Both the position numbers and the translations under genes were made by a program. From Caldifarciminota bacterium (GTDB taxonomy: Bacteria; Hydrothermota; Tepidihabitantia; B3-TA06), in NCBI GenBank assembly GCA_016934635.1, contig JAFGSK010000025.1, positions 1-64,000 on the forward strand: a stretch of DNA of 64,000 nucleotides, given 5' to 3'. The notes below the pieces were generated by a model. It was given only the letters and a program-made list of their open reading frames with translations. It searched no databases and was not told the DNA's origin. This document shows positions 7,825 through 62,146 of the stretch, piece after piece; position 1 is the stretch's first letter; each line of letters starts with the position of its first letter.

Positions 7825-8184
7825 ATGAATCGCCAATCACTCGGTAAGCGCGGGGAAGAAGCTGCTGCGGAGTTTCTTCAGAACTCAGGCTACGGGATAA
7901 TCACCCGCAACTTCTACACCCGCTGGGGAGAACTCGATATCATCGCCCGGGACTCGGAAGAGATAGTTTTCGTCGAGGTGAGGACCAGATCCACCGCAGG
8001 CTTCATGACTCCCGGTGAGTCGGTCGACTACGCCAAGCAGGACCGGCTTCGAAATGCGGCCCAGACATGGCTGTCTGAACACTACCCTATTGAACCGCCG
8101 CCCTGCAGGTTCGATGTTATCTCTGTAATAATCAAAAAAGGTCAACCACCTGTCATCGAACACTTTACCAATGCTTTCCAGTGA
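7825..8184 (+). CDS. yraN: UPF0102 protein YraN, endonuclease-like fold
   Basis: 119 residues, standard for the family. Motifs in order: GKRGEEAAAEFL (about 7-18), NFYTRWGELDIIARD (about 30-44) and FVEVRTRS (about 50-57). The acidic and basic residues match the nuclease-like active site of the Holliday-junction resolvase-related fold. The cellular role is unsettled. It is commonly encoded near comM, as here, with only the broken kinase gene between. The mRNA appears leaderless, with the -10 box ending six bases before the ATG. Confidence 0.92.
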   Translation: MNRQSLGKRGEEAAAEFLQNSGYGIITRNFYTRWGELDIIARDSEEIVFVEVRTRSTAGFMTPGESVDYAKQDRLRNAAQTWLSEHYPIEPPPCRFDVISVIIKKGQPPVIEHFTNAFQ

Positions 8185-8185
8185 A

Positions 8186-8703
8186 ATGTGGAGGATTCTT
8201 GTGGTTGGTTCGGGCGGGGCAGGCAAGTCGATGCTTGCGCGCAAGCTCTCAAAGATACTCAGGCTTCCACTGATCAATCTGGATGCCCGTTACTGGAGAC
8301 CGGGCTGGGTCCAAACAGGTAAAGATGAGCGGAAGCAAATTGTATCTGAACTGATCAAAAGGGATCGTTGGGTAATTGACGGAAACTAAGGTGGTACCTT
8401 GGTCATGCGCTTAAAGGCCGCTGATACCGTGATCTTCCTTGACTATTCCCGTTTCTTATGCTTGTATCGGGGCCTAAGAAGGCAGCTTACCAGGGTACGC
8501 CCGTATGCGATCCCGGGCTGCCACGAAAAGATGGATAAAGAGTTTATACGATGGATCTGGAACTATCCTCGCAATTCGAGGCGTAGAGTAGAATAATGAA
8601 GATCCTCGATGAAGAGGGTAAAGGTAAATGCATCATTATCCTAAAAAAACCGAACCAGACCAGAAGGTTCACCGAAACACTAAAGGCCGTAATCCAGCCT
8701 TAA
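8186..8703 (+). pseudogene. broken P-loop kinase, DNA topology modulation protein FlaR-like
   Basis: A single gene broken at two points. The first part (from ATG 8186; an in-frame ATG also exists at 8171) has the Walker A motif GSGGAGKSMLARKL and runs to WVIDGN, where a TAA at 8387-8389 replaces the expected Tyr codon of the family motif DGNYGGT. In the same frame GGTLVMRLKAADTVIFLD follows, with the lid-like segment and WNYPRNSRRR. A stop at 8597-8599 then coincides with a frame change, and the C-terminal IILKKPNQTRRF piece resumes in another frame to the TAA at 8701-8703. Total length (about 175 codons) fits the adenylate-kinase-like FlaR family. Two lesions argue for a real pseudogene rather than one base-call error. 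Confidence 0.8.
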
Positions 8704-8765: not shown

Positions 8766-10316
8766 ATGTTAGCAAAGGTTACTTCAGCTGGGCTTCTGGG
8801 CATCGACGCCTATCGTGTGGAAGTCGAAGTAGATACGGTCCGCAGCGGCCTGCCTTACTGGGCCACGGTCGGGCTGCCGGAAGGCGCGGTCAAGGAATCC
8901 AAGGACAGGGTGCTTGCCGCGTTAAAGAACTCTGGCTATTCGTTACCGGTTTCGAGGACAACCGTCAATCTTGCGCCTGCAGACATTAGAAAGGAAGGCG
9001 CTGCGTACGATTTGCCGATAGCGCTCGGAATGATCGCCTGCCGGGGAGGAGTCCCACAAGAAGAACTTGCCCGCTACCTCATAGTCGGCGAACTCTCCCT
9101 CGACGGCACTATCCGACCGATCAAGGGCGCGCTTTCCGTCGCTTCACTCGTCCAGGAACTCGGCTGTTTCAAGGGGTTGATCCTGCCTTCCCAAAACGCT
9201 CGTGAGGCGGGAATCCGGGGCAAGGGTTTTGTGTATCCTGCGGATTCACTTCTGCAGGTGGTCCGCTTCCTCTGCGGCGAGGAGGAAATTCATGCTATCG
9301 ACGTTGACGTTGACGAACTGTTCCGTGAGGAGATGTCCTGGGGTGTGGATTTTTCCGAGGTCAAGGGCCAGGAGCATGCCAAACGCGCGCTGGAGGTTGC
9401 AGCCGCAGGCGGACACAACATTCTTCTAATAGGCCCACCGGGCACGGGAAAGACAATGCTGGCCAAGCGTCTGCCGACCATCCTTCCATCGCTATCCTTA
9501 GACGAGGCCCTCGAGACGACACGCATCCACTCGGTGGCCGGGATGCTGGATCAGGGAAAGGCCCTTGTTGCCACGCGTCCCTACAGGTCCCCACACCACA
9601 CCATCTCGGACGCTGGTCTGATCGGCGGCGGCCAAGTCCCGCGACCTGGGGAGGTTAGCCTTGCCCACAACGGCGTGCTCTTTCTCGACGAACTGCCCGA
9701 GTTCCGGCGCAACGTTCTCGAGGTCCTGCGTCAGCCCCTGGAAGACGGCAAGGTCGTCATATCCCGGGCCAAGGTTACAATTCCCTATCCTGCCCGTTTT
9801 ACGTTAGTTGCGGCCATGAACCCGTGCCCGTGCGGTAACCTTACGGACCCTGTGAACGTATGCAGGTGCACACCTCCGCAGATCCAACGCTACAGGTCAC
9901 GCATTTCAGGGCCTTTGCTCGACCGGATCGACATTCACATCGAAGTCCCTAAGTTACGTTTTGACGAGATTAGGCGCAGAGAGCCGGGCGAGACCTCGGC
10001 GAGCATCCGCGAACGCGTAGTCAGAACTAGACAGGTGCAACTTACGAGATTTAAGGCGCTTAAGCGCAAGCACCCCGTTTACTCGAACGCGCAGATGGGG
10101 TCGCGGGAAGTACGTTCTTTTTGTGATATCTCACCTGATTCCGAGCACTTACTGAAGACCGCAATGGAGCGCTTCGGGCTTTCGGCGCGCGCGCATGACA
10201 AGATCCTCAAGGTGGCACGTACAATCGCGGATTTAGATTCATCCGAGCATATAAAGCCGCAGCACATCTCGGAAGCTATACAGTACCGCAGCCTGGACCG
10301 CAAGGTTGAGCTGTGA
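8766..10316 (+). CDS. comM: YifB/ComM family Mg-chelatase-like AAA+ ATPase
   Basis: 516 residues. The N-terminal Lon-protease-like fold domain covers about 1-170 ([32 protein letters not shown]). The AAA+ core has Walker A GPPGTGKT at 223-230, Walker [10 protein letters not shown] and the PCPCG cysteine segment ([10 protein letters not shown]). The C-terminal domain ends with [12 protein letters not shown]-like residues ([12 protein letters not shown]). ComM is a hexameric helicase promoting branch migration during natural transformation in Vibrio; other homologues are less studied. Length and motifs look intact. It lies at the left edge of a repeat-rich accessory island. Confidence 0.95.
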
Positions 10317-10330
10317 AAACGTGGCAAAAA

Positions 10331-10570
10331 AAGTATGACAAAAGTATGACAAAAATGGGACAAAAGCGCCCCAAAAGCAGGACAAAAGTGGGACAAGTTG
10401 AAGTTCGATTCATCGAACTTCTTAAATCTCGACGAAGTCGAGATTAGGGGTCACCCGCGAAAGCGCGAAGCGATTTGGTGGGGTGAAAAATAAGTAGGAC
10501 AAAAGTGGGACAAAAGGGTGACAGATCGAACTTCTTAAATCTCGACGAAGTCGAGATTAGGGGTCATCCG
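10331..10570. repeat. GGACAAAA-type tandem repeats and a duplicated double palindrome
   Basis: Two layers. First, degenerate short tandem units of the form (G)TATGACAAAA / GTGGGACAAAA at about 10331-10396, and again at 10495-10522. Second, a pair of perfect hairpins: GAAGTTCGAT / ATCGAACTTC with a 2-nt loop (10400-10421), then AATCTCGAC / GTCGAGATT with loop GAA (10425-10445). A 42-nt segment of this pair (10412-10453) is repeated exactly at 10525-10566, 113 bases on, having lost the left arm of the first hairpin. The comM-TIR gap of 342 bases contains no credible gene. Confidence 0.85.
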
Positions 10571-10615: not shown

Positions 10616-10643
10616 TTGACAGGAAGGTGGAAAAGTAGATACT
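10616..10643 (+). promoter_or_regulatory. promoter of the TIR/HEPN-like pair
   Basis: TTGACA (10616-10621), a 16-bp spacer and GATACT (10638-10643). The leader is about 10 nt long with AGAAGG upstream of the ATG at 10659. Confidence 0.6.
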
Positions 10644-10658
10644 AGAGAAGGTAATTAG

Positions 10659-11420
10659 ATGAACGAATTTACTCAAAGATTAAGGCTCATAATTTTCCCA
10701 TACCTTAAAAGTGTATTGGATCACTTGAAGCGGAAATTGTCTATTGATTCTTACCAGAAAGTGGCGTGGGCTGAATATTGGGAAGACCATTTAAAAAAAA
10801 CGAAAGATTATTTCCTTGAATTAAAGAAGAACCTACAGGATCTTTTCGAAGCACTTAGCATCAGGGAGTTACCGGAAAAGTTATCCTCCGAAGAAGGACC
10901 TTTTTTTGAAATTAGTTATATTGAGTTCTTTAGGGGAGACTTAGAACTTGCCATTAGATTGATTCGGAATTACTTAGAAGAGCTTACAGTAAAGGCAAAG
11001 GCAGACATCGCTAAAGTTTTTATTAGTCATGGGCCACCAACTTCCGTACTTGATAGAGTTTTTAAGTTTGTAAGAGATGACCTTGGTTTAGAACCAATTG
11101 TGGCGGAATGGACAGCCTCCGAAGGGCGCGGAATTCGACCAGATGCTGAGAAGAAGATACAAGAATCACACTGCGCGATTATTCTAGCTGAGAAAGACCC
11201 TGATGATCCGAAGGGGAAAAACCCTCGAGGAAACGTACTCATCGAATCGGAACACGCAAAGCTGATGTTAAAAGATAAACTCATCTGGCTAAAAGAAGAA
11301 GGGGTAGAATGGCCTTCCATGAATCGTGCGATAATCTGGGAGAGTTTCACACAAGACTGTTTGGAAAAAGCATTTGCCAAAATTGTAAGGGAGTTAAGAG
11401 CTTTCGATCTCTTAAGGTAG
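10659..11420 (+). CDS. TIR-like domain protein with helical N-terminus
   Basis: 253 residues. Residues 1-115 are charged and helical with no domain I recognise. From about 117 a TIR-like alpha/beta domain begins with AKVFISHGPP. It continues through the second strand GLEPIVAEW, the phosphate-loop-like segment EGRGIRPDAEKKIQ, the core strand SHCAIILAEKD and the helix NVLIESEHAKLM. Glu196 or Glu198 there sits where TIR NADases keep their catalytic glutamate. The layout resembles the predicted nucleotide-binding TIR-like family (PF10137) found in anti-phage systems. It is four bases upstream of a HEPN-like gene and shares its promoter. An abortive-infection role is inference. The locus is more AT-rich than its neighbours and flanked by palindrome clusters, suggesting transfer. 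Confidence 0.68.
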   Translation: MNEFTQRLRLIIFPYLKSVLDHLKRKLSIDSYQKVAWAEYWEDHLKKTKDYFLELKKNLQDLFEALSIRELPEKLSSEEGPFFEISYIEFFRGDLELAIRLIRNYLEELTVKAKADIAKVFISHGPPTSVLDRVFKFVRDDLGLEPIVAEWTASEGRGIRPDAEKKIQESHCAIILAEKDPDDPKGKNPRGNVLIESEHAKLMLKDKLIWLKEEGVEWPSMNRAIIWESFTQDCLEKAFAKIVRELRAFDLLR

Positions 11421-11424
11421 AATT

Positions 11425-12231
11425 ATGATCATTTTCCCTGAGTTTAATCGTAAATATCGGGAAGTACTCGGTCGCCTTATTAAAGGGGAGAAAATTGAGA
11501 GTGTCGTAGGGATTGCCGCACTAAATGATTATTTGATCAAAAGAATGCAGGATTATACAGTTATTGAACATCTGCCTAAGTCTAAACCAAAGGAAAAAGG
11601 TGAAGAGTATTGTCAGAGATGGATGAAGAACTTTGACGAAAGACAAAAGCTGGTAATTGAGTTCATTGCTGCGTGGCAATGCCAAATTCTATTTACATTA
11701 TTGAAAGTATACCAAGCAGGTCTGCTCTTGGGTAATCCAATACCTGAAGAAATGAGGCTGAAATGCAATATGCAAAATGAAACAGAATGGTATGAATTGC
11801 TCCAATCATTTGTCGTTAGTGAAATTTATATTTTCCAAAACAGATTATTTGCCTGGTTTGGTTTATTCAAAAATGCTGTGAAAAAATTTGAAGGGTCACC
11901 AAAATTAATAACTCAAATTGATGAAGCTACTGCCTCTATACGAAAGGAAACAGACAATTTAATCAAACTCAGACACGTGTACGTTCATCCTCATTCAGAT
12001 AGTAAATTCGAAAGGAAGCTTAGGCTGTGGAATTTACGAAAGGTAATACTTGAAAATGTACCCGGAGGAGAAAAAAAATTGGGAGCTTCCTTAAGGAAAG
12101 TGAATACCGAAATCAAAACTTCTGCCCCCAAAGTCGCTCTAATTGTTAAACGTAAACTTCTTTCATTACTCAATCGATATTCAGGTCTTATTCAGGATGC
12201 CATAAAATTTATAGACCCAGGGTATAAATAG
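11425..12231 (+). CDS. HEPN-like helical protein, partner of the TIR-like gene
   Basis: 268 residues, almost entirely helical. Near residue 183 it has Arg-His-Val-Tyr-Val-His-Pro-His, an RX4H pattern like the catalytic motif of HEPN ribonucleases (Arg183, His188, plus His190). It is clearly homologous to the protein at 15078-15902: both share YQAGxLL, a (T/S)EWY block followed by a (S)EIYxF helix, and equivalent spacing to the RH motif. In that paralogue both histidines are tyrosine. AAGG precedes the ATG at 11425, and the gene follows the TIR-like stop by four bases. I know no named family with this architecture. HEPN membership is a motif-level guess and could be wrong. Confidence 0.55.
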   Translation: MIIFPEFNRKYREVLGRLIKGEKIESVVGIAALNDYLIKRMQDYTVIEHLPKSKPKEKGEEYCQRWMKNFDERQKLVIEFIAAWQCQILFTLLKVYQAGLLLGNPIPEEMRLKCNMQNETEWYELLQSFVVSEIYIFQNRLFAWFGLFKNAVKKFEGSPKLITQIDEATASIRKETDNLIKLRHVYVHPHSDSKFERKLRLWNLRKVILENVPGGEKKLGASLRKVNTEIKTSAPKVALIVKRKLLSLLNRYSGLIQDAIKFIDPGYK

Positions 12232-12739
12232 ACCGAAGGGAGGTGTAGGGACAAACACTCTTGTTTGTCCGGACAGGCTGGAGAGCCTGTCCTACACGCT
12301 AAATCTGTGTTAATCAGTGAAATCTGTGGTTTCAAAAGGGGTACGCTGCGACCTGCGCCCGCTCGATGGAGGCAACTCCGTCTTAATGCTCCTTTTTGCG
12401 TAGAGGACACGCAAAAAGATCGCAGGCGGCCTGTGGCCGCAGCTCGTTGGAGGCAACTGCGTCGCCTTCACTCGCTGCGACCTGCGCCCGCAGCTCGTGT
12501 GCCGAACAGGTTCTCTAACCTGTTCAATCAACGAGAATGGACACCCTGAGAGGGTGTCCTCCGTGGTATGCAGTCCGTAGGGGGCGACGTTCGCAACTTG
12601 GGTTGCGCGCTACGCGTTAGGTCGGCTCGATTACAAATCATAACGGGCGCACCTGAAGGTACGCCCCTACGGGGTTTTACTATGGAGTGCAACAACCGTG
12701 TTGTTGCGGCGATGACGTGGTCATCGCACTCCAAATCAG
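12232..12739. repeat. cluster of perfect palindromes between the HEPN-like gene and the MFS gene
   Basis: About 500 bases without a credible gene. (a) 12243-12297: an outer stem GTGTAGG/CCTACAC encloses two hairpins, GGACAAACA/TGTTTGTCC (loop CTCT) and GGACAGGCT/AGCCTGTCC (loop GGAG). (b) 12504-12525: GAACAGGTT/AACCTGTTC, loop CTCT. (c) 12539-12559: GGACACCCT/AGGGTGTCC, loop GAG. (d) 12592-12607: CGCAAC/GTTGCG. (e) 12645-12666: ten-base arms with one mismatch. (f) 12683-12733: outer stem TGGAGT/ACTCCA enclosing GCAACAAC/GTTGTTGC and GCGATGAC/GTCATCGC, each with a 3-nt loop. Elements (a) and (f) share a three-way-junction shape but no sequence. Confidence 0.85.
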
Positions 12740-14958: not shown

Positions 14959-15081
14959 TTGATTAAAATAGGTTTCCCCACAGTATCCGGAGGACGGCAT
15001 GATGTATGGGGGATATACGTCAGAAGATTTGGCGAATATCCTTCATTTTTTATACCTCCTAGCCGGAAGGAGAAAAGATGA
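14959..15081 (+). CDS. possible 40-residue small protein coupled to the HEPN-like paralogue
   Basis: A TTG start with AAGGAG ten bases upstream opens a 40-codon frame. Its TGA overlaps the ATG of the next gene (ATGA), the arrangement used for translational coupling. The peptide is basic and aromatic, ending FFIPPSRKEKR. I recognise no homology. It could be a real small protein, the remnant of a lost upstream partner (the other HEPN-like gene has a TIR-like gene in this position), or chance. A second overlapping frame, starting at an ATG near 14999, is also open for about 33 codons. Confidence 0.3.
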   Translation: MIKIGFPTVSGGRHDVWGIYVRRFGEYPSFFIPPSRKEKR

Positions 15082-15902
15082 ACCGATCGATGCTGGATGA
15101 GTTACCGGAGGATCCTCTCGGGCGTTTACTCGAAGGTGAAAACCAAGGAAACTTTACCGAGCTCGTGGAATTCGATGCCAGGTCGCGTAAGATCTGGCGG
15201 ACATTGACCAAGGAGAATCCAATCCCTGCGCTCAAGACCGAAGAGACGGATAACGGATGGAGGGAGACCTGGCTCGATAAATTCGGCAAAGAGGAAAAGC
15301 TGGTTGCCCTACTTGTCGAGATATGGGAACAGGAGATCGTTTCGTCTCTCGTAAGGATGTACCAGGCTGGGAATCTTCTCGTCAAGCCTTTTCCCGCCGA
15401 AGAGGCCTTAAGGAGAGATATCCGCAACGATTCCGAGTGGTACGATCTGACCCTTTCCGCCTACCTCAACGAGATATACGTCTTCAAGTGCCGGGTACAG
15501 TTCTGGTTAACCAAGATAGAGAAGGAATTGAAACGATACCCGGATGCGCCGCACTCGATTGAAGAAACCACTAAACGAAGTCTCAAGGACATCGAAGACC
15601 TGACAAATCAGTTGACCCAGATAAGAGGCAGGCATATGTACCTGTACGGGTATTCGGATTTGGAATTAGAACTCCACGATTCCGCCGAGACGATATCCCC
15701 GGAGGATTCCGAGATAGATCTGGACTCCAGGGACCTGCTCCACAGCCTGAACAAGGTATATAAGATCGAGTGGGAGGAGATTACTAAAAACCATAAGTCC
15801 GCTTTCCTGAATATCCTGTGTTCGATTTCCAACATATTCAAGGACGCGATTTTTTATCTCGCACCCAGGTTCAAAGGGATTCCGATCGCCGGGAGTAAAT
15901 AA
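15078..15902 (+). CDS. paralogue of the HEPN-like protein, putative active-site histidines replaced
   Basis: 274 residues, helical and acidic. It aligns with the protein at 11425-12231 through the block MYQAGNLL, SEWYDL, NEIYVF and the later RH motif. Where the other protein reads Arg-His-Val-Tyr-Val-His-Pro-His-Ser-Asp, this one reads Arg-His-Met-Tyr-Leu-Tyr-Gly-Tyr-Ser-Asp, so both histidines are tyrosines. If the RX4H motif is catalytic, this copy is inactive or has another function, such as regulating the first. AAGGAG precedes the ATG. It has no TIR-like partner; the gene before it is a membrane protein. No named family is recognised. Confidence 0.6.
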   Translation: MNRSMLDELPEDPLGRLLEGENQGNFTELVEFDARSRKIWRTLTKENPIPALKTEETDNGWRETWLDKFGKEEKLVALLVEIWEQEIVSSLVRMYQAGNLLVKPFPAEEALRRDIRNDSEWYDLTLSAYLNEIYVFKCRVQFWLTKIEKELKRYPDAPHSIEETTKRSLKDIEDLTNQLTQIRGRHMYLYGYSDLELELHDSAETISPEDSEIDLDSRDLLHSLNKVYKIEWEEITKNHKSAFLNILCSISNIFKDAIFYLAPRFKGIPIAGSK

Positions 15903-45105: not shown

Positions 45106-48100
45106 TTGGCCGGAAAAGCCAAAAAGCCGCAGAGCATAGCCTCGCGGCGCGAAAGGAGCACTTCATCTACCAGGAGCCAGGTTCGGGACAACATCCAGTC
45201 TTTCGATAATCTTCTCGCTTCGATCAGCTCAGGCAAAAGCTACGACAAGGGGGAGCTTGAACGTATTGCAGGCAAGACCGGTCAGTTAAGAAGACTGGTA
45301 GATGCATTCATCCAGAGGGAAACGGAACTCGAAGATAAAATCAAGACCGAACGAAAAAGAAGTGAAAAACTCAGGAAAAAGGTCGCCGGACTGGAAAACC
45401 TGGAAAGAAGCGATCGAGAGATTTTATACAAGGAGTTGTTCGAACAGGCTCACGATGCAATCTTCATAGAAAATGAAGCAGAGGAGATAGTAGAGGTTAA
45501 CAAACGCGCCTCAGAACTTACCGGATATACGAGATCCCAGCTTTTACAGATGAGGACCAGGGATCTGCAGACAGATGAGTTCAAGAAGGGAAAGACGCTC
45601 GAGGTTTACTCGACCGACAAGCCCTCCGAGGCGGAGGTTCTGGAGACAGTCATCGTAAATCGTAACGGTTCTGAGATACCCGTACACCTTACCCTTGCAC
45701 CCCTGAAGTTCGACGAACGAAAGCTTGTCCTTTCTATAGTCCGCGAGATATCCGACATCAAACGCGCAGAGGAGGCACTTGCGGAGCGGGAAAGGCTTTA
45801 CCGTACACTTGTGAATACAGCACAGGATGCCATCATTCATGCCGACGAAGCCGAGAATATCCTTTTTGCAAATCCTGCAGCCGCCGAGCTTTTAGGAGTA
45901 GATTCGGAAAAATTGGTTGGCAGGAGTTTCTATGATTTCCTGTCCCCAGAGGAATCCAAGATTCTGGTTGATCAGTCGAAGAGAAGGATGAAAGGTGAAA
46001 CCTCCAGATACGAGTTAGGGCTTAAGTGCAAGGATGGAAGCAGACGCGATGTTCTCGTTACGGCGGCGCCAATATACGATTCGGCCGGTAAGGTTACATC
46101 CTCAATGGGGGTTTTGACCGATATTACCGAACGGAAAAGAGCTTTAAAGATACTTGAGAGAGAGCACAAGGCCTTCCGAATAATTGCAGAAGCCTCTGTC
46201 CAAGGGGCAGATATCCCAGATGTCTGTACTAGGATTGTTTCAGGGTTAACAGAAGCCCTGGGATTCGACGCCGGGACATTCAGATCGTACGAGGGTGAGA
46301 CCCTCAGGCTCGAAGCGTCTTTTGGTCTTACGGCAAAGGAGGAGGAACTTGCCGCCGAGCCCCAGAGCGTTAAAGATAATCGTTTTGTAGCGGCATTGAC
46401 CGCGAGGACCAAAAAACCGATTATCGTTTCGGACGCAAGCAAAGAAAAAAGCCTTGAACCTTTCACCGAAAGACTCGGTAAGTTCAAGGAGCGTTCTTTA
46501 ATCTCCTGGCCGGTTACAGGTTCAAAAGGTCACCTTTTAGGGGTATTACACTTTTGGGCAAAGAGCAGAAAAAATATCTCCGCCGGCGACACCGATTTCT
46601 TCGAGAGGATAGCCGGGATGTTTGCGAACGTTCTGGAACGCAGGATAACCGAAGATGCATTGAAGGGAAGCGAGGAGAAGCACCGCACACTCATAATGAG
46701 TATTCGTTCTCCTGTGGTTGCATTGACCGAGGACGCAGGAGTACTTTACTGCAATGATTCATTTGCAGGTCTGTTTCACAGAAAAGCAGAGAAGATCGAA
46801 GGCAGGAACTTTCTCGAGGTCATGCCCGGTTTTTCCGAAACAGAGTTCTATAAGGCGTATCTTGAGACGCTTAAGACCGCTAAAGCTTCGGAAGTAGATG
46901 CCCTGCTCGGGAGTAGGCACTTTCATGCCCGCATCTTCCGTACGCCATGGGGAGTACTATTAATCGCCGAGGACGTTACGGATCGTAAATCCGCAGAGGC
47001 CGAACTCGAACGGTATACCCGATCCATGGAGGGCCTTTACGAACTGGTTAAACAGATAAACCTGTCTGTTGATCTTGCGGATATGTTCACAAGAATCACA
47101 CCGCTGCTTGAGGATAACCCCGGCGTGATAGCAGGTGGCATATACCTGATTGACGGTGCTAGTCTCAGCCTTGAGAGGGGGTTCGGGCCTTCCAGGGGTT
47201 TCTACGAAAAGAATGATACCATCGAAGTTCGGGCAAAAGGAGCAGCAGAAGTTTTAAACACCCGGAGTGCAGTCATCGTTTCTTCTTTTGCCGGGGCCGA
47301 GATCAGTGAAGTGAAGTTCAAGAGGGAAAAAGGGACGATGGTGGGTGTATCGCTTCGTTCGGCAGACGATTTGCTTGGCGCATTTTACATGATTCTAGCC
47401 GGCACCGACGATTACACCTTAGCCTTTATGGAGATGCTGGGCTCTGAGATAGGAACAGGTGTCAAGCGAAAACTCGTGGAAGATGCAATGCGAGATTCAG
47501 AAGAGCGTTTCCGCAGCGTATATGAGAACGTCCCTATCGGCATGTACCGGACTACACCCGATGGTCGTATCATCATGGCCAATCCCGCCATGCTGGATAT
47601 GTTGGGTTGCAAGGGCTTTCACGAGCTTGCCAAGTACGATCTTGAATCAGGAGGGAAGTACGGGCCGCAGTATGATCGATCTGTTTTCAAGGAGAGCATC
47701 GAACGAGAAGAGAGGATAGTAGGATGGGAGACGGTTCTTAAGAAACTTGACGGATCTACGATTACGGTAAGAGAAAATGCAAAGGTTGTTCGCGATGAGG
47801 AGGGGAATCCTCTGTATTACGAGGGGACACTCGAGGATATTACTCAGCTTTCGGTTATTAATGAGATATCAAGGGCGATTTCATCGACCCTTGATGTTAA
47901 AGAACTGTATGGGATCATTCACAACCAGTTGAAGCGCCTTATTACCGCAGATAACTTCTATATAGCTCTCTACGACGAGAGGACCGATGAGGTGAGTTTC
48001 CCTTACGTTTTTCAGGACGGCGGTGTTCAAGAATGGGCCACTCGTAAGGCAGGGAAGGGGATGACCGAGTACGTTATCAGAAAAGGTAAGGCCCAGTTGT

Positions 48101-51100
48101 TTGCGGGTGATAAATCAGATGCCTACCAGAAGGGTACAGAGCTTATCGGTAAACCATCGGAGTCCTGGCTCGGCGTACCCATGATTATAAGAGACAAGGT
48201 TATCGGCGTGATGACCGTACAGTCCTTCGATCCCGATATTGTATATTCCACCAAAGAGATAAACCTTATGCAAACCGTCGCAAACCAGGCCTCTCAAGCC
48301 GTTGAAAACGCACGCGCCTATTCCAATCTGGAACAACGGTTGACCGAGGTTTCGGTGTTTACCGAGATCGCCCGTGCACTCGGGTCAACCCTGCAACTCG
48401 ACGAACTAATGAAACTTATATATAACCAGACTAAGCGTATCATGTACGCCGATAACTTTTACGTCGCGCTTTACGATGAGGAGGGAGGAAGGATTGAATT
48501 CCCCTTTTACATCAGGGATGGAAAGAAGGTGAAAACCCCGGGCCGCAATTTCGGCCAAGGTCTTACCGAGCACGTTATTACTACAAGAGAAGGACTCCTT
48601 TTAAGTTCCAGGAATGCGGAGAAGACAATATCTGCAAAAATCAAGAGGCACACGGTCGGGGAAGCGGCCCAGTCGTGGCTGGGTGCACCAATGGTTTCCC
48701 ATGACCAGGTTCTCGGTATCATTGCTGTACAGAGCACGAAAGATCCCGACCTCTACGATGAGAACCACAAGCGACTTTTGTCCTCAATAGCCAATCAAGC
48801 CGCAGGTGCGGTGGCGAATGCAAAGGCATATTCCGCTCTTGAACGAAAACTTACGGAGCAGTCGGTGTTCAATGAAATCGGCATTGCACTCGGTTCGGTT
48901 CTTGAACTGGATGAGTTGCTCAAAGTAATATACGAACAAACCTCCAGGGTTATGGATACCGATCAATTATACATATCACTTTATGATGAGAAAACAAACA
49001 CCATTGAATTCCCGCTTGTTACAGAAGCAGGTAAAAGTGTAAAAGTTCCTTCTCGCAAGTTCGGCAATAGTGCCACCGAATACGTAATTACAACCCGTAA
49101 GCCCCTGCTCATCAAACGCGACTTTTCAAAAACCATCGAAGCCTTGGGTCTGGAGTTAATCCTTGAGAAAGGGGAGGCGGAACCTTTGTGCTGGCTGGGC
49201 GTTCCCATGATTTCTGCAGATAAGGTCTTGGGGGTTATAGTCGTACAAAATGTAGAGAGGGAAGAGATATTTGGCGAGGACGATCTGCACACCTTGACGA
49301 CTATCGCCAGTCAGGCGGCGGGAGTAGTCGCCAACGCACGGGCCTACGCCAATCAGGAAAGGAGGCTGACCGAACTCTCCGTATTCGCCGAGATCGCTCG
49401 GGCGCTCTCCGCCACACTTGAGCCTGAGGAGCTTATGAAGCTTCTGCACGAACAGACCAAACGCCTCATGGACGCGGATACCTTCTACATTGCCTCCTAC
49501 GACGAGGATCATGGGATTATTGAATTCCCATACTTCATTGAAGATGGAAAATCCGTTGAGGTTCCTTCACGTCCTTTCCGAAAAGGCCTTACTGAATACG
49601 TTATCCGAACCGGGGAGCCTTTTTTAATCCAGCACGATGATTTTGAGGAGGAATGCAAGAAGAGAGGCGTCGAGATGGTCGTAATAGGGAGTACGCCGCT
49701 GTCTTGGCTGGGAGTGCCCATGATCGCACGCGACAAGGTTCTTGGCATCATCTGCACCCAAAGTATAAAGACATCCAATATATACGATGAAAACGACAAA
49801 AACGTGCTTGTCTCGATTGCTAACCAGGCTGCAGGGATGTTTTCAAACGCGCGTGCATACCAGGCCCTGGGGAAGGAGCTTACAGAACGTTCGGTGATAA
49901 ACCAGATAAGCCAGGCGATCAGTTCCACGTTGAATGTAGACGAGCTTTACGGGCTTATCCACTCCCAGATAAAGCGTCTTATCAACGCCGAAAACTTCTA
50001 CATTGCCCTTTATGAGAGGGATACCGACGAGGTAATCTTTCCATACGCGTTCCAGGACGGCTCGCTCCAGGAGTGGGGATCCCGCCGCAGCGGCAAGGGG
50101 ATGACGGAGTACGTTATTTCGACAGGTAAGCCCCAGCTTTTCCAAAAGGATTCAGCACAGGAGGCAACCAGCAGAGGTGTAGAGCATATTGGAAAGAGTT
50201 CATCTTCATGGCTAGGGGTTCCGATGAAGATTCGTAACGAGGTCATCGGTGTAATGACAGTTCAATCGTTCGATCCGGAGATTACCTATACCGAAAGGGA
50301 CATGGAGCTCATGCAGCTTGTTGCCAACCAGGCTGCCCAGGCGGTCGAAAACGCCCGGTCATACTCGGACCTCGAACACAGCCTTACGGAGCTTTCGGTG
50401 TTCAGCGAGGTCGGGAGGGCGCTTGGCGCCACGCTTAATCTGGACGAGCTTATAGAGGTAATATACACCCAGACCTCAAGGGTCATGGATACCCAGAGTT
50501 TCTATATAGCCCTGCATAACGAGGAAGACAACACAGTCGAGTTTCCTTTATTCAAGGCAAGCGACGGGCAGCGCATCAGCCTTCCTCCCCGTAAATTCGG
50601 AAAGGGTCTGACCGAATACGTCATAGGGTCCAGGAAATCGTTGCTGCTTAAGGAAAACGTTGTCGAGGAAGCCCGAAAGATTGGAGTCGAGATAAAGCTG
50701 GTCGGAAACGAGGCCGTTCCTCAGAGCTGGCTTGGAATCCCCATGATCTTCCATGATAAGGTGGTCGGGGTCATCGGTGTCCAGAATACAAAAGAAGCGA
50801 ACATATACGACGAGAGTCACCAGCGTCTCCTGGAAGCGATATCCAACCAGGCCGCAGGAGCGGTTGTGAATGCACGTTCGTATGCACAGATTGAGCGCAG
50901 GTTGACCGAACTTTCAGTCATCAACGAGATAGGTCGAGCACTAGGGACAACCTTTGGTCTGGAAGATCTTCTTGAGATCATTCACGTTCAGATCAGTCGG
51001 ATAATGGATACCGAAAATCTATACATCGCGTTATACGACGAGAGGTCCGAGAGTATCGAATTTCCTTTTGCAATGGACGACGGGAAAAGGGTTTCCTGGC

Positions 51101-54100
51101 CTACGAGACCACTGGGTAATGCATTGACCGATTATATCATTCAAACTCGCGAATCGCTGTTGATAAAGCGGGATGTGATCGAAGTATGCAAAAAACTGGG
51201 AATCGAAATGGTCGTGATAGGTGAATCTCCCCTTTGCTGGCTCGGCGTGCCGATGGTTTCACAGGATAAGGTCATCGGGGTGATTGCTGTACAGAGCACG
51301 CAGAGACCTGAAGTTTTCGACGAAGATCACGAGCGTCTACTGGAATCGGTGGCCAACCAGGCGGCAGGAACGGTGGCAAACGCCAGGGCTTACACGATGC
51401 TTGAAAGACACGGTGGGGAGTTGAGGACTCTTTTTGAAACGGCTTCAGCTGTAGCTTCAGTTCTGGATGAAAAGGAGGTCGCTTCCTTGATCGCCCACAA
51501 GGCAACCGAACTTATAGGTGCATCAGGCTGTACCGTCTACCGATACGAAGAGCTGGCAAACGAATTAGTGGCGCAGACAACGACGCTGAAGGATGGAAGG
51601 GATGAGATACTTGCACATCGCGTAAAGCCGGGCGAGGGAATAACGGGCAAGGCCGCTTCGGAAAGAAAAGAGATCCTAGCAAACCACGTCCACAAAGACC
51701 CCAAGTCGTACCGCATACCGGGAACAAAGGAACTTCCTACATGTCTTATGTCGGTACCACTCATCTCCCACGGCAAACTCCTCGGTGTAATGACGCTTTC
51801 GCGTTTCACGGACGAAGGTTTTGAGGCTCATGATCTCGAGCTTTTCACACTTTTTGCCGCCCAGGTTGCAGATGCCGCGGCCAACTCAAGACTCTTTGCA
51901 AGGCTAAAGGAGTTGAACGAAAACCTTGAGCGTCGGAGTGAGGAGCTCGGAACCCTGTTTAAGACTTCGACCGAACTATCTTCAACCCTTGATGAAGACG
52001 AGGTAGCCAAGCTTATAGCACAAAAGTCAACCGAACTTATCGGCGCTGACGGTTGTACGGTTTACCGCTACGACGCAGCCCAGGAACTCCTTGTACCCCA
52101 GATATCGACCAACAGAAAGAACCGCGAACAGGTAATGAGCTTCAGGTTGAAACTTGGTCAGGGTGTAACCGGTACTGCAGCCAAGGACCGCAGACCCTTG
52201 ATGAAAAATCACGTCCACCTTACCGGTTCGTCAGCACACGTTCCAGGAACAAAAAAGGAACCGACATGTCTTTTGTCAGCACCATTGATATCCAAGGGCG
52301 AACTGATGGGTGCGATGACCTTGACGAGGCTTTCAGAGAAGGAGTTTTCAGAACACGATCTGCAGCTCTTTACCCTTTTCGCCCGCCAGGCTGCAGAAAC
52401 ATTTGCCAACAGTCGTCTGTTCGGTCGGCTGAAAGAGCTGAAGGACAACCTCGAGAAACGAAGTGAGGAACTCAAGACGCTGTTCGATACGTCAACCGAG
52501 CTCTCATCTACCCTGGATGAAAACCAGGTCGCAAAGATCATTGCCGAACGTGCAAAGAGTCTGATTCCTTCATCGGGGTGTACTTTCTATCGTTACGACA
52601 GCGAGGAGGAAAAACTCGTACCTACGGCAACCACTGTTAAGGAAGAAGCAGGACAGAGGATGGTACACAAGATATCACTCGGTGAAGGTGTATCGGGAAG
52701 ATCGGCAGAACTCAAAAAGCCTCTTTTAGAAAACAAGGTTCATCTGAACCCGAAGGCACCACGCATACCGGGTACCGATGAGGTTCATACCAATATCATT
52801 GCAATACCTTTGATGGCCCGCGATGAACTGCTGGGCGACATGACGATAACTAGACTGTACGACGAGGATTTTACAACTCACGACCTGCAGATTGCTACGC
52901 TTTTTGCAAGGCAGGCAGAACAGGCGGTCGCCAATTCTCGACTTTTCAGCCAACTCAAGGAACTGAACGAGGATCTTGAATGTCGTAGCCAGGAGCTTGA
53001 GAATCTGATACGCGTCAGTACAGGGGTTTCGTCCACTCTTGACGAGGAGGAGATGGCGACATATATATCCTCCAAGGCAAAGGAGCTTATTCCATCCACC
53101 GGATGTACCTTTTACAGTTTCAACTCCGCAACCGGCAAGCTCGTACCGATGACTACTACGGTTATGGAAGAGTACGAGGAGCGGATGGCCTACAACGTAC
53201 CTTTAGGTGAAGGGATAACAGGGACGGCTGCCCGAGACAGGCAGACCATTATGGCAAACCGGGTTGACCTTTCCCCAGATGCGGTGTGCGTCCCTGGCAC
53301 CGAGAACCTGCCCACGTCGATTATCTCATCCCCACTCGAGGCACGCGGGGAGCTAATCGGTGCATTGACGCTTGTAAGGATTTCTGAAGAAACATACTCA
53401 GATCACGACAAACAGATATTCTCGCTCTTCACTCGTCAGGTTGCCGAGGCCTTTGCCAATTGTCGGCTTTTCTCACAAATGCGGGATTTCTCAGAGGCAC
53501 TGGAACAGAAGGTATCAGAACGTACACGAGAACTGGAGCGGGCAAAATTCAAACTCGAGGATGTTCACGCCGAGTATAAGGATAGGGTCAAATCGAGACT
53601 CGAAACAATTGCACCTATCCTTGAGAAGGTTGGGAAGGGGGATTTTTCAGAGACTATCCCTATGCCTGAGAAGGCTGACGAGTTTACAGATTTATTCCGC
53701 AATCTCAATCTAATGATATTCGACATGCAGAACCTGGTTGATGAAAACTTGTCCAAGGCCGATGAGCTGCAGAGGTTGAACGAGGACTTGGAGGCCCAGG
53801 TAGCCGAGCGTACACTTGACCTCGAGTCGGCTCACGAGCAATTGAAGGTAATTCACGCCGCTTACAGGGACAGGGTAAACGGTTACCTTGCGATGTTGAG
53901 TCCGGTACTTGAGAAGGTCGGGAGATGGGATTTCAGTCAGTCTCTGCCGGCTGAGGAGATAACCGACGAGTTCAAGGATTTGTTCGATGGTTTGAACAGG
54001 ATGATCGAGAACCTGCGGTTTATGGTAGACGAAAACAACCGGCGAAGCGAGGCTCTCAAGACCTTGCTCGATACAAACACCGAGGTGTCAATTTTGCTCG

Positions 54101-56532
54101 ATGAAAGCAAGGTTACCGAGGTGGTTGTCAAACGTGCCAAGGAGCTTTTTCATGCCGACGCTTGTACCGTGTATAAATACGACCCCCAGGCGAACAATCT
54201 TATCCCTCAGATTACGACCTTTACAGATATGAGAGATGAGGTTCTTTCCCGTAAAATCCCTATGGGTGAAGGAATAACCGGAAGGGTTGCTGCAGTTAGA
54301 GAGTCCATCTGTGAAAGCAAGATAAAAAGCGACATACTGGAGTTCCCGAAAGAGGTTACTAAAGGCAAACCAGTATCAATGATGGCAGCTCCGATGGTTT
54401 CACAAGGGGAATTGATAGGCGTGATGAGTTTGGTCAGATTCGGAGAAGATGGTTTCCTTGCTCATCGTGATATGGAGTTGTTTCAGCTTTTTGCTCTGCA
54501 GGTCGCCGATGCGGCTGCCAACAGTCGACTGTTCGAGAAGCTGAATGATCTGAATGAAAAACTTGAGTCGAAAGTGGCACAGCGAACCGCAGAACTCGAG
54601 GTCGCCAACAAGAAACTCAAGGAGGTTCACGACTCCTATCAGGAGCGTGTACGTCAAAGGCTTTCAACAATAGCACCTGTCATGGAGAAGGTTTCACTGG
54701 GCGACTTCAGCGAGAATATACCTGTCCACGAAACTGAAGACGAGTTTACCGAACTCTTCGTCGGTTTGAACCTGATGATCGACGATCTGCGGTTCATGTT
54801 CGATGAGAATCGCCGCCGCAGTGAGGAACTCAAGGATCTTAACGAAGACCTCAAGAGTCGAAGCGAGGAACTGCGCGAGAGGGAACAACTTTACCGTACA
54901 CTCGTTCAGACCGCACAGGAGGCGATTACCCTTGCCGACGATGAAGAGAACATCATCTTTGCCAATCCAGCTCTCGGAGACCTTCTGGGATATGATCCCT
55001 CTGACCTAGTAGGAATGACTCTTTTGGATTTCATGCCCGAAGAGGAGCGCGATTTCGTACGTGCCCAGACAAGTCTAAGACATAAGGGAGAAACTTCCCG
55101 GTATGAGCTGACACTTATTCACAAGGAAGGTATCAAGCGTAACGTTCTGGTTACCGCAGCTCCTATCTATGATGCGGATGGTAACTATACCGCTTCCATG
55201 GGTATCTTGACCGATATCACGGATCGCAAGCGCTCCGAGCAGGAACGCCAAACTCTGCTTGAGACAACGACCGAAGTGGCAGCCACCCTTGATGAGGTTA
55301 AGGTTTCTGGTCTAATTGCTCAAAGGGCAAAGGACCTTATCAAAGCAGACAGATGTACAATATACAAGTACGATAGCCAGAACGAGATTCTGGTTCCCCA
55401 GACAACTACAGCAAAGAGCCGAGATCGTAAGAAGGTCCTGAGTTACAGTATCGGGCTAGGTGAGGGTGTTACTGGGAAGGCCGCCTCCGAACGCAAACCT
55501 ATCCTTGCCAACAACGTTCATACCGACCCCGATGCTTCGCGTATCCCCGGAACCCCGGAAAGGCCAACCTGTCTGCTTTGTACTCCCCTTATCTCGAAGG
55601 GAGAACTCCTTGGGGTAATGACTCTTACCCGTCTGTCGGAGAATGAGTTTGAAGACCACGATTTGGAACTTTTAACACTCCTTGCCGGGCAGGTTGCAGA
55701 CGCAATGGCCAACAGCCGTCTGCACGGTCAACTCCGCGAACTCAACGAGAACCTCGAAGAGATGGTCGCCAGACGTACGGCAGAGCTTGAGGAATCCAAC
55801 CGCAAAACGAAAGCCTTTGCGAGAGAACTGGAGGAGGTGATTTACGTCACCAGTCACGATTTGAAAACCCCTCTGCGCGCGATATCCGGGTTCAGTCAGT
55901 TCCTTTTTGAGGATTACAATCAGAAGCTTGATGCCAAAGCCCAGCTTTACCTGACTCGACTAATCGATTCGACCAAGAGGATGGAAAGACTTCTGGATGA
56001 TCTTCTCAATATTTCAGCAATCAGCAGAAGCAAGGAAGCCTTTGAGACTATACCTGCAGGTGAGCTTATCAAGGAGGCTGTATTGATGGTCGATACCGGA
56101 GAAGATGTAGATATTATATTTGAGCCTGAGGAGTTGCCTACAGTATACTGTGATCGGGCAAAGATAGTCGAAGTTTTTTTCAATCTAATAGGAAACGGAT
56201 TAAAATTCAACAATAAGCCACGCAAAAGGGTAAAGATCTCTGCCCGAAGCAGTGACGGGTTCCACGAATTTACGGTCGAAGATAACGGAATCGGTATTGA
56301 GAAACGTCACTATGAGCGTATATTTAAGATATTTCAGAGACTTCATCAACGGGAGGCCTATGAAGGCACCGGTGTGGGACTTTCTATGGTCAAGAGGGTG
56401 ATTGAAGAACATAACGGCAGGATATGGGTTGAATCTCAGGTAGGAACGGGTACAATATTCCATTTCACGTTGCCGGAGCGCAACGATGGAACAGGAGAGA
56501 ATGCCAAAGAGAAAGGAGCGAGTGATGGCTGA
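45106..56532 (+). CDS. giant soluble histidine kinase: 5 PAS, 15 GAF and 3 HAMP-like modules
   Basis: 3808 residues, TTG start with GAGG, no membrane helix. Order: coiled coil (about 60-105), PAS1 (108-225), PAS2 (228-350), a divergent GAF (355-510), PAS3 (525-640), a second divergent GAF (645-790) and PAS4 (797-905). Then come seven GAF domains of the first kinase's type (about 910-2100) and four GAF domains of a second type with GEGITG and NHVHxDP...IPGT motifs (about 2103-2800). After these are HAMP-like modules near 2818 and 2916, a GAF at 2981, HAMP-like 3 near 3175, PAS5 near 3258 and the last GAF near 3378. His3584 (TSHDLKTPLR) and an ATPase domain (NGLKFN, DNGIGIEKRHYERIFKIFQRL, GTGVGLSMVKR) close the protein. 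It probably integrates many cytoplasmic signals. Confidence 0.93.
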   Translation: MAGKAKKPQSIASRRERSTSSTRSQVRDNIQSFDNLLASISSGKSYDKGELERIAGKTGQLRRLVDAFIQRETELEDKIKTERKRSEKLRKKVAGLENLERSDREILYKELFEQAHDAIFIENEAEEIVEVNKRASELTGYTRSQLLQMRTRDLQTDEFKKGKTLEVYSTDKPSEAEVLETVIVNRNGSEIPVHLTLAPLKFDERKLVLSIVREISDIKRAEEALAERERLYRTLVNTAQDAIIHADEAENILFANPAAAELLGVDSEKLVGRSFYDFLSPEESKILVDQSKRRMKGETSRYELGLKCKDGSRRDVLVTAAPIYDSAGKVTSSMGVLTDITERKRALKILEREHKAFRIIAEASVQGADIPDVCTRIVSGLTEALGFDAGTFRSYEGETLRLEASFGLTAKEEELAAEPQSVKDNRFVAALTARTKKPIIVSDASKEKSLEPFTERLGKFKERSLISWPVTGSKGHLLGVLHFWAKSRKNISAGDTDFFERIAGMFANVLERRITEDALKGSEEKHRTLIMSIRSPVVALTEDAGVLYCNDSFAGLFHRKAEKIEGRNFLEVMPGFSETEFYKAYLETLKTAKASEVDALLGSRHFHARIFRTPWGVLLIAEDVTDRKSAEAELERYTRSMEGLYELVKQINLSVDLADMFTRITPLLEDNPGVIAGGIYLIDGASLSLERGFGPSRGFYEKNDTIEVRAKGAAEVLNTRSAVIVSSFAGAEISEVKFKREKGTMVGVSLRSADDLLGAFYMILAGTDDYTLAFMEMLGSEIGTGVKRKLVEDAMRDSEERFRSVYENVPIGMYRTTPDGRIIMANPAMLDMLGCKGFHELAKYDLESGGKYGPQYDRSVFKESIEREERIVGWETVLKKLDGSTITVRENAKVVRDEEGNPLYYEGTLEDITQLSVINEISRAISSTLDVKELYGIIHNQLKRLITADNFYIALYDERTDEVSFPYVFQDGGVQEWATRKAGKGMTEYVIRKGKAQLFAGDKSDAYQKGTELIGKPSESWLGVPMIIRDKVIGVMTVQSFDPDIVYSTKEINLMQTVANQASQAVENARAYSNLEQRLTEVSVFTEIARALGSTLQLDELMKLIYNQTKRIMYADNFYVALYDEEGGRIEFPFYIRDGKKVKTPGRNFGQGLTEHVITTREGLLLSSRNAEKTISAKIKRHTVGEAAQSWLGAPMVSHDQVLGIIAVQSTKDPDLYDENHKRLLSSIANQAAGAVANAKAYSALERKLTEQSVFNEIGIALGSVLELDELLKVIYEQTSRVMDTDQLYISLYDEKTNTIEFPLVTEAGKSVKVPSRKFGNSATEYVITTRKPLLIKRDFSKTIEALGLELILEKGEAEPLCWLGVPMISADKVLGVIVVQNVEREEIFGEDDLHTLTTIASQAAGVVANARAYANQERRLTELSVFAEIARALSATLEPEELMKLLHEQTKRLMDADTFYIASYDEDHGIIEFPYFIEDGKSVEVPSRPFRKGLTEYVIRTGEPFLIQHDDFEEECKKRGVEMVVIGSTPLSWLGVPMIARDKVLGIICTQSIKTSNIYDENDKNVLVSIANQAAGMFSNARAYQALGKELTERSVINQISQAISSTLNVDELYGLIHSQIKRLINAENFYIALYERDTDEVIFPYAFQDGSLQEWGSRRSGKGMTEYVISTGKPQLFQKDSAQEATSRGVEHIGKSSSSWLGVPMKIRNEVIGVMTVQSFDPEITYTERDMELMQLVANQAAQAVENARSYSDLEHSLTELSVFSEVGRALGATLNLDELIEVIYTQTSRVMDTQSFYIALHNEEDNTVEFPLFKASDGQRISLPPRKFGKGLTEYVIGSRKSLLLKENVVEEARKIGVEIKLVGNEAVPQSWLGIPMIFHDKVVGVIGVQNTKEANIYDESHQRLLEAISNQAAGAVVNARSYAQIERRLTELSVINEIGRALGTTFGLEDLLEIIHVQISRIMDTENLYIALYDERSESIEFPFAMDDGKRVSWPTRPLGNALTDYIIQTRESLLIKRDVIEVCKKLGIEMVVIGESPLCWLGVPMVSQDKVIGVIAVQSTQRPEVFDEDHERLLESVANQAAGTVANARAYTMLERHGGELRTLFETASAVASVLDEKEVASLIAHKATELIGASGCTVYRYEELANELVAQTTTLKDGRDEILAHRVKPGEGITGKAASERKEILANHVHKDPKSYRIPGTKELPTCLMSVPLISHGKLLGVMTLSRFTDEGFEAHDLELFTLFAAQVADAAANSRLFARLKELNENLERRSEELGTLFKTSTELSSTLDEDEVAKLIAQKSTELIGADGCTVYRYDAAQELLVPQISTNRKNREQVMSFRLKLGQGVTGTAAKDRRPLMKNHVHLTGSSAHVPGTKKEPTCLLSAPLISKGELMGAMTLTRLSEKEFSEHDLQLFTLFARQAAETFANSRLFGRLKELKDNLEKRSEELKTLFDTSTELSSTLDENQVAKIIAERAKSLIPSSGCTFYRYDSEEEKLVPTATTVKEEAGQRMVHKISLGEGVSGRSAELKKPLLENKVHLNPKAPRIPGTDEVHTNIIAIPLMARDELLGDMTITRLYDEDFTTHDLQIATLFARQAEQAVANSRLFSQLKELNEDLECRSQELENLIRVSTGVSSTLDEEEMATYISSKAKELIPSTGCTFYSFNSATGKLVPMTTTVMEEYEERMAYNVPLGEGITGTAARDRQTIMANRVDLSPDAVCVPGTENLPTSIISSPLEARGELIGALTLVRISEETYSDHDKQIFSLFTRQVAEAFANCRLFSQMRDFSEALEQKVSERTRELERAKFKLEDVHAEYKDRVKSRLETIAPILEKVGKGDFSETIPMPEKADEFTDLFRNLNLMIFDMQNLVDENLSKADELQRLNEDLEAQVAERTLDLESAHEQLKVIHAAYRDRVNGYLAMLSPVLEKVGRWDFSQSLPAEEITDEFKDLFDGLNRMIENLRFMVDENNRRSEALKTLLDTNTEVSILLDESKVTEVVVKRAKELFHADACTVYKYDPQANNLIPQITTFTDMRDEVLSRKIPMGEGITGRVAAVRESICESKIKSDILEFPKEVTKGKPVSMMAAPMVSQGELIGVMSLVRFGEDGFLAHRDMELFQLFALQVADAAANSRLFEKLNDLNEKLESKVAQRTAELEVANKKLKEVHDSYQERVRQRLSTIAPVMEKVSLGDFSENIPVHETEDEFTELFVGLNLMIDDLRFMFDENRRRSEELKDLNEDLKSRSEELREREQLYRTLVQTAQEAITLADDEENIIFANPALGDLLGYDPSDLVGMTLLDFMPEEERDFVRAQTSLRHKGETSRYELTLIHKEGIKRNVLVTAAPIYDADGNYTASMGILTDITDRKRSEQERQTLLETTTEVAATLDEVKVSGLIAQRAKDLIKADRCTIYKYDSQNEILVPQTTTAKSRDRKKVLSYSIGLGEGVTGKAASERKPILANNVHTDPDASRIPGTPERPTCLLCTPLISKGELLGVMTLTRLSENEFEDHDLELLTLLAGQVADAMANSRLHGQLRELNENLEEMVARRTAELEESNRKTKAFARELEEVIYVTSHDLKTPLRAISGFSQFLFEDYNQKLDAKAQLYLTRLIDSTKRMERLLDDLLNISAISRSKEAFETIPAGELIKEAVLMVDTGEDVDIIFEPEELPTVYCDRAKIVEVFFNLIGNGLKFNNKPRKRVKISARSSDGFHEFTVEDNGIGIEKRHYERIFKIFQRLHQREAYEGTGVGLSMVKRVIEEHNGRIWVESQVGTGTIFHFTLPERNDGTGENAKEKGASDG

Positions 56533-60537: not shown

Positions 60538-61698
60538 TTACGTGTCTACGTTACTTGTGAGATTGTCAACCGCCCTTATTTCAGATTGCACCAATTTTGC
60601 ACCGATTTCGTCTACTGCGGCCCTGAGTTTCGAGTCCTCAATGTGAGTATACCGGTCAACCATTGCTATAGTCTTGTGTCCGGTCAATGCCTTTATCTCG
60701 AATGCGTTCCGGCCCGACATACCCAGGTATGAAGCGAAGGTATGCCTGAGGTCGTGAAAGCGAAAGTTCTCAACTCCGGCTTGTCTGCAAGCGTTCTCAA
60801 AGCTTCTTCTCCAGTTTCCGTAAGCCTGCCCGTCCGGTCTTGAAAACACGTAACGTGAGTGAGGTCTTTCGATATGAAGTCCGTGCAATACGGGCAGCAA
60901 GTCCTTACTGATCGGTATATGACGAATCTCGTTATTTTTCGTTTCCTTGACCGTGATTATTCCCTTGGGCAAGTTCACGTCATCCCAGGTCAGTCTTTGC
61001 ATTTCGCCTTTACGCATACCGGTTGAAAGCGCAGTCAAGACAATCGGATAAAGCAGAGTGTTTTTGCTTTGCTTGCACGCATCCAGCAAACGTTCACGTT
61101 CACAGTCCGTAAGAAACCTGATTCTGCCCGAAGACTCCTTGAAAGGCCTTACCTTCTTTCCTGGGTTTTCCTTGAGGTATCCCCAGTCAACGGCCTTCGT
61201 CAACATATGCCTGAGTAATGCAAGCTCACGGTTGACCGATTCAGGTTTAACGTCTTTTCTGCGTCTCTGCATGAACCGCTCTATTTCGTGTACCGTTATC
61301 TCTTTAAGCTTTCGTGATCCGAAGGCCCTGGACAGGGTTCGCATCGTATACTTTTCACGTTCACTAGTAGAGGTTGCCTTGTTATCCTTAGCATAGGGTA
61401 CGTACTCACTTTTGAGTCCTGAAAATGTCGTTACGCGTTTGTCATTTATACTTAGTGCATCGTTAAAAGCAACATTGTCAACAATCTTACCAAGTTTTTG
61501 TAGAGCATGGGAGTAGTCGGTTTCTCTTGTGGAGATCATTCGACTTTTCCCGTTCAGCGTAAACCTAACATACCAGCGTCCGTTATTACGCAGGTATAAT
61601 TTCACACCAGCCGTAAGTTTACCACCATAAAGGGAGAAGTCAACCTGTGAGAGCAGTTTCGAGGGCTTGAAGGTTATGATTCTAGAGCTGCTCCCCAT
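60538..61698 (-). CDS. int: tyrosine recombinase / integrase
   Basis: 386 residues. An arm-type DNA-binding N-terminus is followed by a SAM-like core-binding domain (about 95-180) and a catalytic domain with all residues present: Arg229 (STGMRKGE), Lys254 (VKETKNNEIRHIP), His315 and Arg318 (FHDLRHTF), His341 (LTGHKTI) and Tyr350 (MVDRYTHI). It catalyses site-specific integration and excision of the element at tRNA-Lys. The last codon before the TAA touches the tRNA 5' base. AGGGTGA precedes the ATG. It is the last gene of a minus-strand run with the HUH-like gene and a small protein. Confidence 0.95.
   Translation of the reverse strand: MGSSSRIITFKPSKLLSQVDFSLYGGKLTAGVKLYLRNNGRWYVRFTLNGKSRMISTRETDYSHALQKLGKIVDNVAFNDALSINDKRVTTFSGLKSEYVPYAKDNKATSTSEREKYTMRTLSRAFGSRKLKEITVHEIERFMQRRRKDVKPESVNRELALLRHMLTKAVDWGYLKENPGKKVRPFKESSGRIRFLTDCERERLLDACKQSKNTLLYPIVLTALSTGMRKGEMQRLTWDDVNLPKGIITVKETKNNEIRHIPISKDLLPVLHGLHIERPHSRYVFSRPDGQAYGNWRRSFENACRQAGVENFRFHDLRHTFASYLGMSGRNAFEIKALTGHKTIAMVDRYTHIEDSKLRAAVDEIGAKLVQSEIRAVDNLTSNVDT
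60543..60569 (-). promoter_or_regulatory. possible tRNA-Lys promoter inside the integrase 3' end
   Basis: Minus strand TTGACA (60564-60569), a 15-bp spacer and TAGACA (60543-60548), five bases before the tRNA 5' end. If real, the mobile element carries the tRNA promoter within its integrase coding sequence. Confidence 0.4.
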
Positions 61699-61736
61699 CG
61701 CTAAATCACCCTTATCGGAATCATACTCAACCCATT

Positions 61737-62141: not shown

Positions 62142-62146
62142 GATAA

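Follow-up and report, generated by a model that had tools for sequence, protein, structure and literature searches.

A pair of adjacent AT-rich genes in a candidate division WOR-3 bacterium probably serves defence, and the chances are about even that the two genes were acquired as an anti-phage module acting by abortive infection. The first gene codes for a TIR protein, the second for a helical protein, hereafter protein 2. Relatives of protein 2 are found in defence contexts: inside a type III R-M operon, close to a type IIG R-M enzyme, in prophages, and on a plasmid that also has a PF10137 gene nearby. The analysis covered a window of 64,000 nucleotides, i.e. the whole stretch of DNA under study, where the contig measures 70.9 kb and the genome 3.3 Mb. 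The features discussed below are collected in Table 1.

Organization of the locus

Two open reading frames separated by four bases had been announced by the original prediction. Both were found on the forward strand at the predicted positions, encoding 253 aa and 268 aa respectively, and four bases indeed separate the stop codon of the TIR gene from the ATG of the protein 2 gene. Such spacing fits co-transcription and translational coupling of the two genes. The AT-richness of the locus was also verified: GC content is 0.40 in the TIR gene and 0.36 in the protein 2 gene versus 0.50 in the window, and the codon usage of these two genes is the most atypical of the window. The argument for acquisition drawn from AT-richness is a fair one.

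The predicted layout had two other elements. A single promoter had been proposed, and a promoter-like box is present upstream of the TIR gene and kept in the sister species, where TTGACA-16-GATAAT precedes the TIR orthologue (first hexamer and spacing identical, second hexamer nearly so), but a scan shows that the count of the TTGACA-16-GATACT box is near chance level. Repeat clusters were said to bracket the locus as a sign of acquisition. The repeats exist, but the genome has about 20 copies of them, as ordinary dispersed repeats, and they are therefore no marker of acquisition, so that this sign was ruled out.

The neighbours within several kb are yifB, a HEPN-family gene, an MFS gene and a membrane protein gene. 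Elsewhere in the window, a P-loop kinase-like gene is present as two short ORFs (8171-8596), probably broken by a frameshift or a stop. A 3808-aa protein (45106-56532) contains many GAF-like and PAS-like repeat units and a histidine-kinase-like C-terminal part. Towards the end of the window (60538-62818), a gene for a phage-type integrase precedes one that looks unrelated and is low in GC (0.40); together they may correspond to a mobile element.

Table 1. Features of the locus and its surroundings (positions in the window)
Feature	Position	Strand	Basis or remark
Upstream repeat cluster: GGGACAAAAG units and one ATCGAACTTCTTAAATCTCGACGAAGTCGAGATT unit	10315..10570		dispersed genome-wide
Promoter-like TTGACA-N16-GATACT	10616..10643	+	scan; upstream of TIR gene; similar box before sister orthologue
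TIR gene: helical N-terminal domain (~115 residues) and C-terminal PF10137 TIR domain	10659..11420	+	Pfam, PADLOC, orthologue, fold search
TIR domain, residues 119-220	11013..11318	+	PF10137 match, model
E196 codon, aligned with catalytic-type Glu of R-x-N-V-x-x-E	11244..11246	+	alignments
Protein 2 gene, divergent HEPN-family (indirect assignment)	11425..12231	+	profile chain to PF18730-matching protein
R183-H188 codons, RX4H within two residues of family motif RGxHVH	11971..11988	+	profile alignments
Downstream palindromic repeat, dispersed	12242..12310		about 20 genomic places
Multi-TM membrane protein, syntenic with paralogue in sister genome	14184..14870	+	sister comparison
Protein 2 paralogue, 27% identity, RX4H His to Tyr, vertically inherited	15078..15902	+	sequence comparison, synteny

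The TIR protein

Sequence and predicted fold confirm that the first gene encodes a PF10137 (CAP12/Pycsar-type) TIR protein, of the type predicted to cleave NAD+. Its residues 119-220 match PF10137 in Pfam (E=6.3e-8, 33.1 bits for a cut-off of 24.7), and the models of the PADLOC candidate PDC-S35 match the protein with E=2.9e-8. The AlphaFold2 model (pLDDT 83) has TIR-STING, SfSTING and the IL-1RAcPb TIR as best fold matches in the PDB (Foldseek prob 1.00). The TIR claim is therefore upheld both by profile and by structure prediction, as well as by an orthologue with 65% identity in the sister genome. A PDB sequence search with the TIR query gave no meaningful match.

Sequence details that had suggested a TIR domain were recovered. 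VFISHG, described as its start, occupies residues 120-125, and Glu196 and Glu198 lie within a predicted helix (191-203); both are conserved in the sister-genome orthologue. In 7 of 7 aligned PF10137-type proteins, E196 corresponds to the invariant Glu of R-x-N-V-x-x-E, and since these relatives carry the motif, E196 can be regarded as a catalytic-type glutamate. PF10137-type TIR domains are able to degrade NAD+ upon oligomerisation (PMC13142454). No curated entry matches the N-terminal domain above its cut-off, PF08771 FRB (0.0011) staying below it, and in Pfam the domain corresponds neither to STING nor to a cyclic-nucleotide receptor.

Indirect evidence linking protein 2 to HEPN proteins

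Protein 2 had been called HEPN-like from an RX4H motif, Arg183-His188. The motif is present, but by itself it is at chance level: RX4-6H arises in 52% of shuffles of protein 2 and RX4H in 22%, and RX4-6H occurs in 9 of the 19 annotated window proteins of 200-350 aa, protein 2 counted. The motif alone was consequently discarded as HEPN evidence. Direct searches were negative as well, with no HEPN match to protein 2 in Pfam, NCBIfam, PADLOC or PHROGs. The model of protein 2, built from 3 sequences, is all-helical and of no more than moderate confidence (pLDDT 67.5), and fold searches with it in the PDB and BFVD returned generic helix bundles and no HEPN. PDB sequence searches with queries from the HEPN-related family or with G275, a protein introduced below, yielded nothing meaningful.

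The link to HEPN proteins was obtained through a chain of profiles. With the WOR-3 sequences of the family, no matches were found among plasmids, phages and viral_contigs, and the helical proteins, when searched against genome_contigs, matched only the sister-genome orthologue of a paralogue of protein 2. The WOR-3 profile reached a protein of another phylum (G309, E=3.1e-8), which was the sole route to the wider family. In a type III R-M operon, the G309 gene sits between mod (methylase) and res (helicase), separated from them by gaps of 2-4 bases. G309 led in turn to a Paraburkholderia caledonica plasmid protein and to three prophage-type contigs (L069/L079, L072 and L081); matches in G160 and G276, partial or containing stops, were left out. 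The family has two signatures, NEIYIFxxR and RGxHVHxRRYSD, the latter an RX4H. A joint profile then picked up G275 (E=3.3e-5), which matches PF18730 HEPN_Cthe2314 with E=9.4e-17, has a type IIG R-M gene in its vicinity, and contains an RNAIIH that aligns in register with the RGxHVH of the family.

Profile-profile comparison gave a probability of 97.7% between the WOR-3 set (A4) and the other members (A10), and a probability of 65% (E=5.9e-5) between the non-WOR-3 members (A10) and G275. Comparing the WOR-3 profile directly with the PF18730 protein G275 revealed no link, and the HEPN assignment therefore depends on the chain. With the core profile, the scores are 26.7 bits for protein 2, 48.1 for the paralogue and 23.5 for G275; in the control, 2000 shuffles per sequence scored at most 10.9 bits and reversed sequences below 0. 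Sequence profiles thus indirectly support placing protein 2, as a divergent member, in a family whose link to a HEPN protein of the Cthe_2314 type is of moderate statistical strength. This family, with its signature RGxHVHxRRYSD, is unlisted in the profile libraries searched. Although the direct Pfam and fold searches fail, the profile chain and an RX4H close to the family position speak for the HEPN claim, and both domain calls of the original prediction are probably right, the HEPN call for a weaker reason than the one first given.

Contexts of individual HEPN-family genes were also recorded. On L072 and L081 the gene adjoins tail-type late genes, and L072 also encodes a KAP NTPase matching the candidate system PDC-S20; we infer that both contigs are P2-like prophages carrying the HEPN-family gene at a known cargo site. 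In L055 (2920-7998) a HEPN-family gene separates the methylase and helicase genes of a type III R-M operon, the spacing being near-overlapping. On the prophage-type contig L081 (4827-6445) the HEPN-family gene has a 4-base overlap with a second gene, which contains LRHQIVH, another RX4H, so that a HEPN-HEPN pair is possible. In L077 (4708-6308) a PF18730 HEPN gene is followed 8 bases further by a gene with RHGMLHG (RX4H); a type IIG R-M gene and a PLD-like gene lie close by.

Active site and paralogue of protein 2

HEPN proteins that carry RX4-6H act as RNases in conflict systems (PMC3710099). In the alignment, the RX4H motifs of all five core members of the family and of G275 coincide, and that of protein 2 is within two residues of them. 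A profile built without WOR-3 sequences puts R183 and H188 of protein 2 on the family R and H; a gapless alignment with the paralogues shifts H188 by two residues, so that the catalytic positions are taken by K181 and Y186. On these alignments, R183 and H188 would rather be the active pair of protein 2 than not.

The paralogue had been overlooked in the original prediction. Its orthologue in the sister genome adjoins the same membrane-protein gene, and the paralogue (GC 0.49) is therefore an old, vertically inherited copy. In both of these vertically inherited WOR-3 copies, the paralogue and its orthologue, a Tyr replaces the motif His. The protein 2 gene (GC 0.36) is a divergent one, probably imported.

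Conservation of the pair in other genomes

Within the genus a single further genome is available, which is also the nearest one: candidate division WOR-3 bacterium isolate RBin_337 (G001), fragmented and 81% complete. The TIR orthologue is at the same site behind yifB, and is AT-rich in this genome too (GC 0.37 versus 0.56), while yifB has 0.56-0.58 in both species. Downstream of it, in place of the HEPN-like gene, lies a gene whose 158-aa product has a hydrophobic segment of membrane type; a transposase-like ORF then begins and the contig ends. The TIR-HEPN gene order did not turn up in this sole sister genome.

No HEPN-family neighbour was seen at the five other PF10137-type loci read in the phylum. 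The only other locus where a PF10137 gene is near a HEPN-family gene is the Paraburkholderia caledonica plasmid, on which the two are convergent and about 0.8 kb apart. Homologues of the two genes thus do meet outside WOR-3, but in no conserved arrangement. A literature search on TIR and HEPN operons, covering mainly openly available papers, found no such pair described. In three genomes of the WOR-3 family, PF10137-type helical-TIR genes (L033 3468-4178, L034 3074-3913, L036 3015-3845) are located directly behind AMMECR1-like and MEMO1-like genes, a conserved TIR-AmmeMemoRadiSam synteny.

Comparison with known systems

The TIR protein resembles the PF10137 CAP12/Pycsar-type TIR proteins and PDC-S35 in its profile, in the Glu of R-x-N-V-x-x-E and in the succession of a helical N-terminal domain and a TIR domain; its fold is closest to TIR-STING. 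It differs from CAP12/Pycsar-type proteins in that its N-terminal domain is not a STING or cyclic-nucleotide receptor in Pfam, and the nucleotide cyclase gene that stands beside the effector in CBASS and Pycsar was not found among the neighbours within several kb.

A TIR gene with a partner as possible separate effector recalls Thoeris and the three-gene TIR and transmembrane system of the P2-like phage AC1 (PMC9122126), the sister genome having a TIR gene and a membrane protein gene. However, no SIR2-SLOG ThsA adjoins the TIR gene here, the ThsB-type TIR is of another Pfam family, the partner is HEPN-like and signalling is putative. With HEPN/MNT (HepT/MntA) the locus shares a bicistronic unit encoding a HEPN protein, but the partner is a TIR protein and there is no nucleotidyltransferase.

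The family of protein 2 is linked to PF18730 HEPN_Cthe2314 through the G275 profile, with the RX4H in register, but it is below Pfam detection and has its own signature. The 2013 HEPN survey gives no gene neighbourhood for Cthe_2314 (PMC3710099), whereas the relatives of protein 2 are found in R-M operons and prophages.

Alternative interpretations

The two-component suicide system of the original prediction is a reasonable hypothesis, against which stands the different partner of the TIR orthologue at the same site of the sister genome. That observation also favours a plain alternative, two independent defence genes side by side, i.e. a PDC-S35-like single-gene TIR and a HEPN-family gene co-transcribed by an accident of insertion. 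PADLOC handles the PDC-S35 architecture as a single-gene candidate, and we take the PDC-S35 name itself to denote a single-gene candidate system. The five PF10137-type loci without a HEPN-family neighbour and the varied, mostly TIR-free contexts of the HEPN-family relatives point the same way. The four-base gap, the one conserved promoter, the low GC common to both genes and, weakly, the further co-localisation on the P. caledonica plasmid argue against independence, which we regard as possible but on the improbable side. That protein 2 is instead an unrelated helical protein with an RX4H by chance would agree with the motif frequency in shuffles and the empty fold and library searches; the profile chain and the conserved position of the RX4H in the five core members and G275 make this unlikely.

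If protein 2 does have the HEPN fold, it may be catalytically dead and bind RNA or the TIR protein as a sensor or regulator, the TIR NADase being the sole effector. The His to Tyr change in the paralogue and its orthologue and the gapless alignment are in favour of such a role, and inactive HEPN versions are seen as probable nucleic-acid binders in the HEPN survey (PMC3710099); protein 2 nevertheless retains its RX4H, aligned with the family R and H by the non-WOR-3 profile, and we find a dead protein rather doubtful. A toxin-antitoxin pair, one protein restraining the other as in HEPN/MNT, would suit the bicistronic order and tight spacing, HEPN proteins being frequent toxins in such pairs (PMC3710099, PMC7641770). 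Neither protein has any likeness to a known antitoxin in Pfam, PADLOC and other profile libraries, the TIR gene can do without the HEPN gene, as can the paralogue without a TIR gene, all of which renders this reading very improbable.

Proposed mechanism and implications

In the anti-phage module that we favour, the helical N-terminal domain of the TIR protein would sense infection, and the TIR domain would then oligomerise and cleave NAD+, causing its depletion or producing a signal. The HEPN protein may contribute RNA cleavage as a second, exchangeable effector. On this view the TIR protein would stay constant as the core, whereas the gene behind it, for a HEPN protein in this genome and for a membrane protein in the sister, would be an exchangeable helper or effector, an idea drawn from one comparison of two genomes, the sister being fragmented and 81% complete. 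A more specific version, to which we give little credence, is that the PF10137 TIR makes an NAD+-derived signal switching on the exchangeable partner, an HEPN RNase here and the membrane protein in the sister; if true, it would combine a Thoeris-like logic with an RNA-cutting arm.

The presence of the HEPN-related family in a type III R-M operon, in prophages and on a plasmid provides new neighbourhoods for a HEPN group that had none in the 2013 survey. If the two genes cooperate, a single operon would attack both NAD+ and RNA, and the partner swap seen in the sister genome would allow the modularity of effectors that follow a TIR protein to be tested directly.
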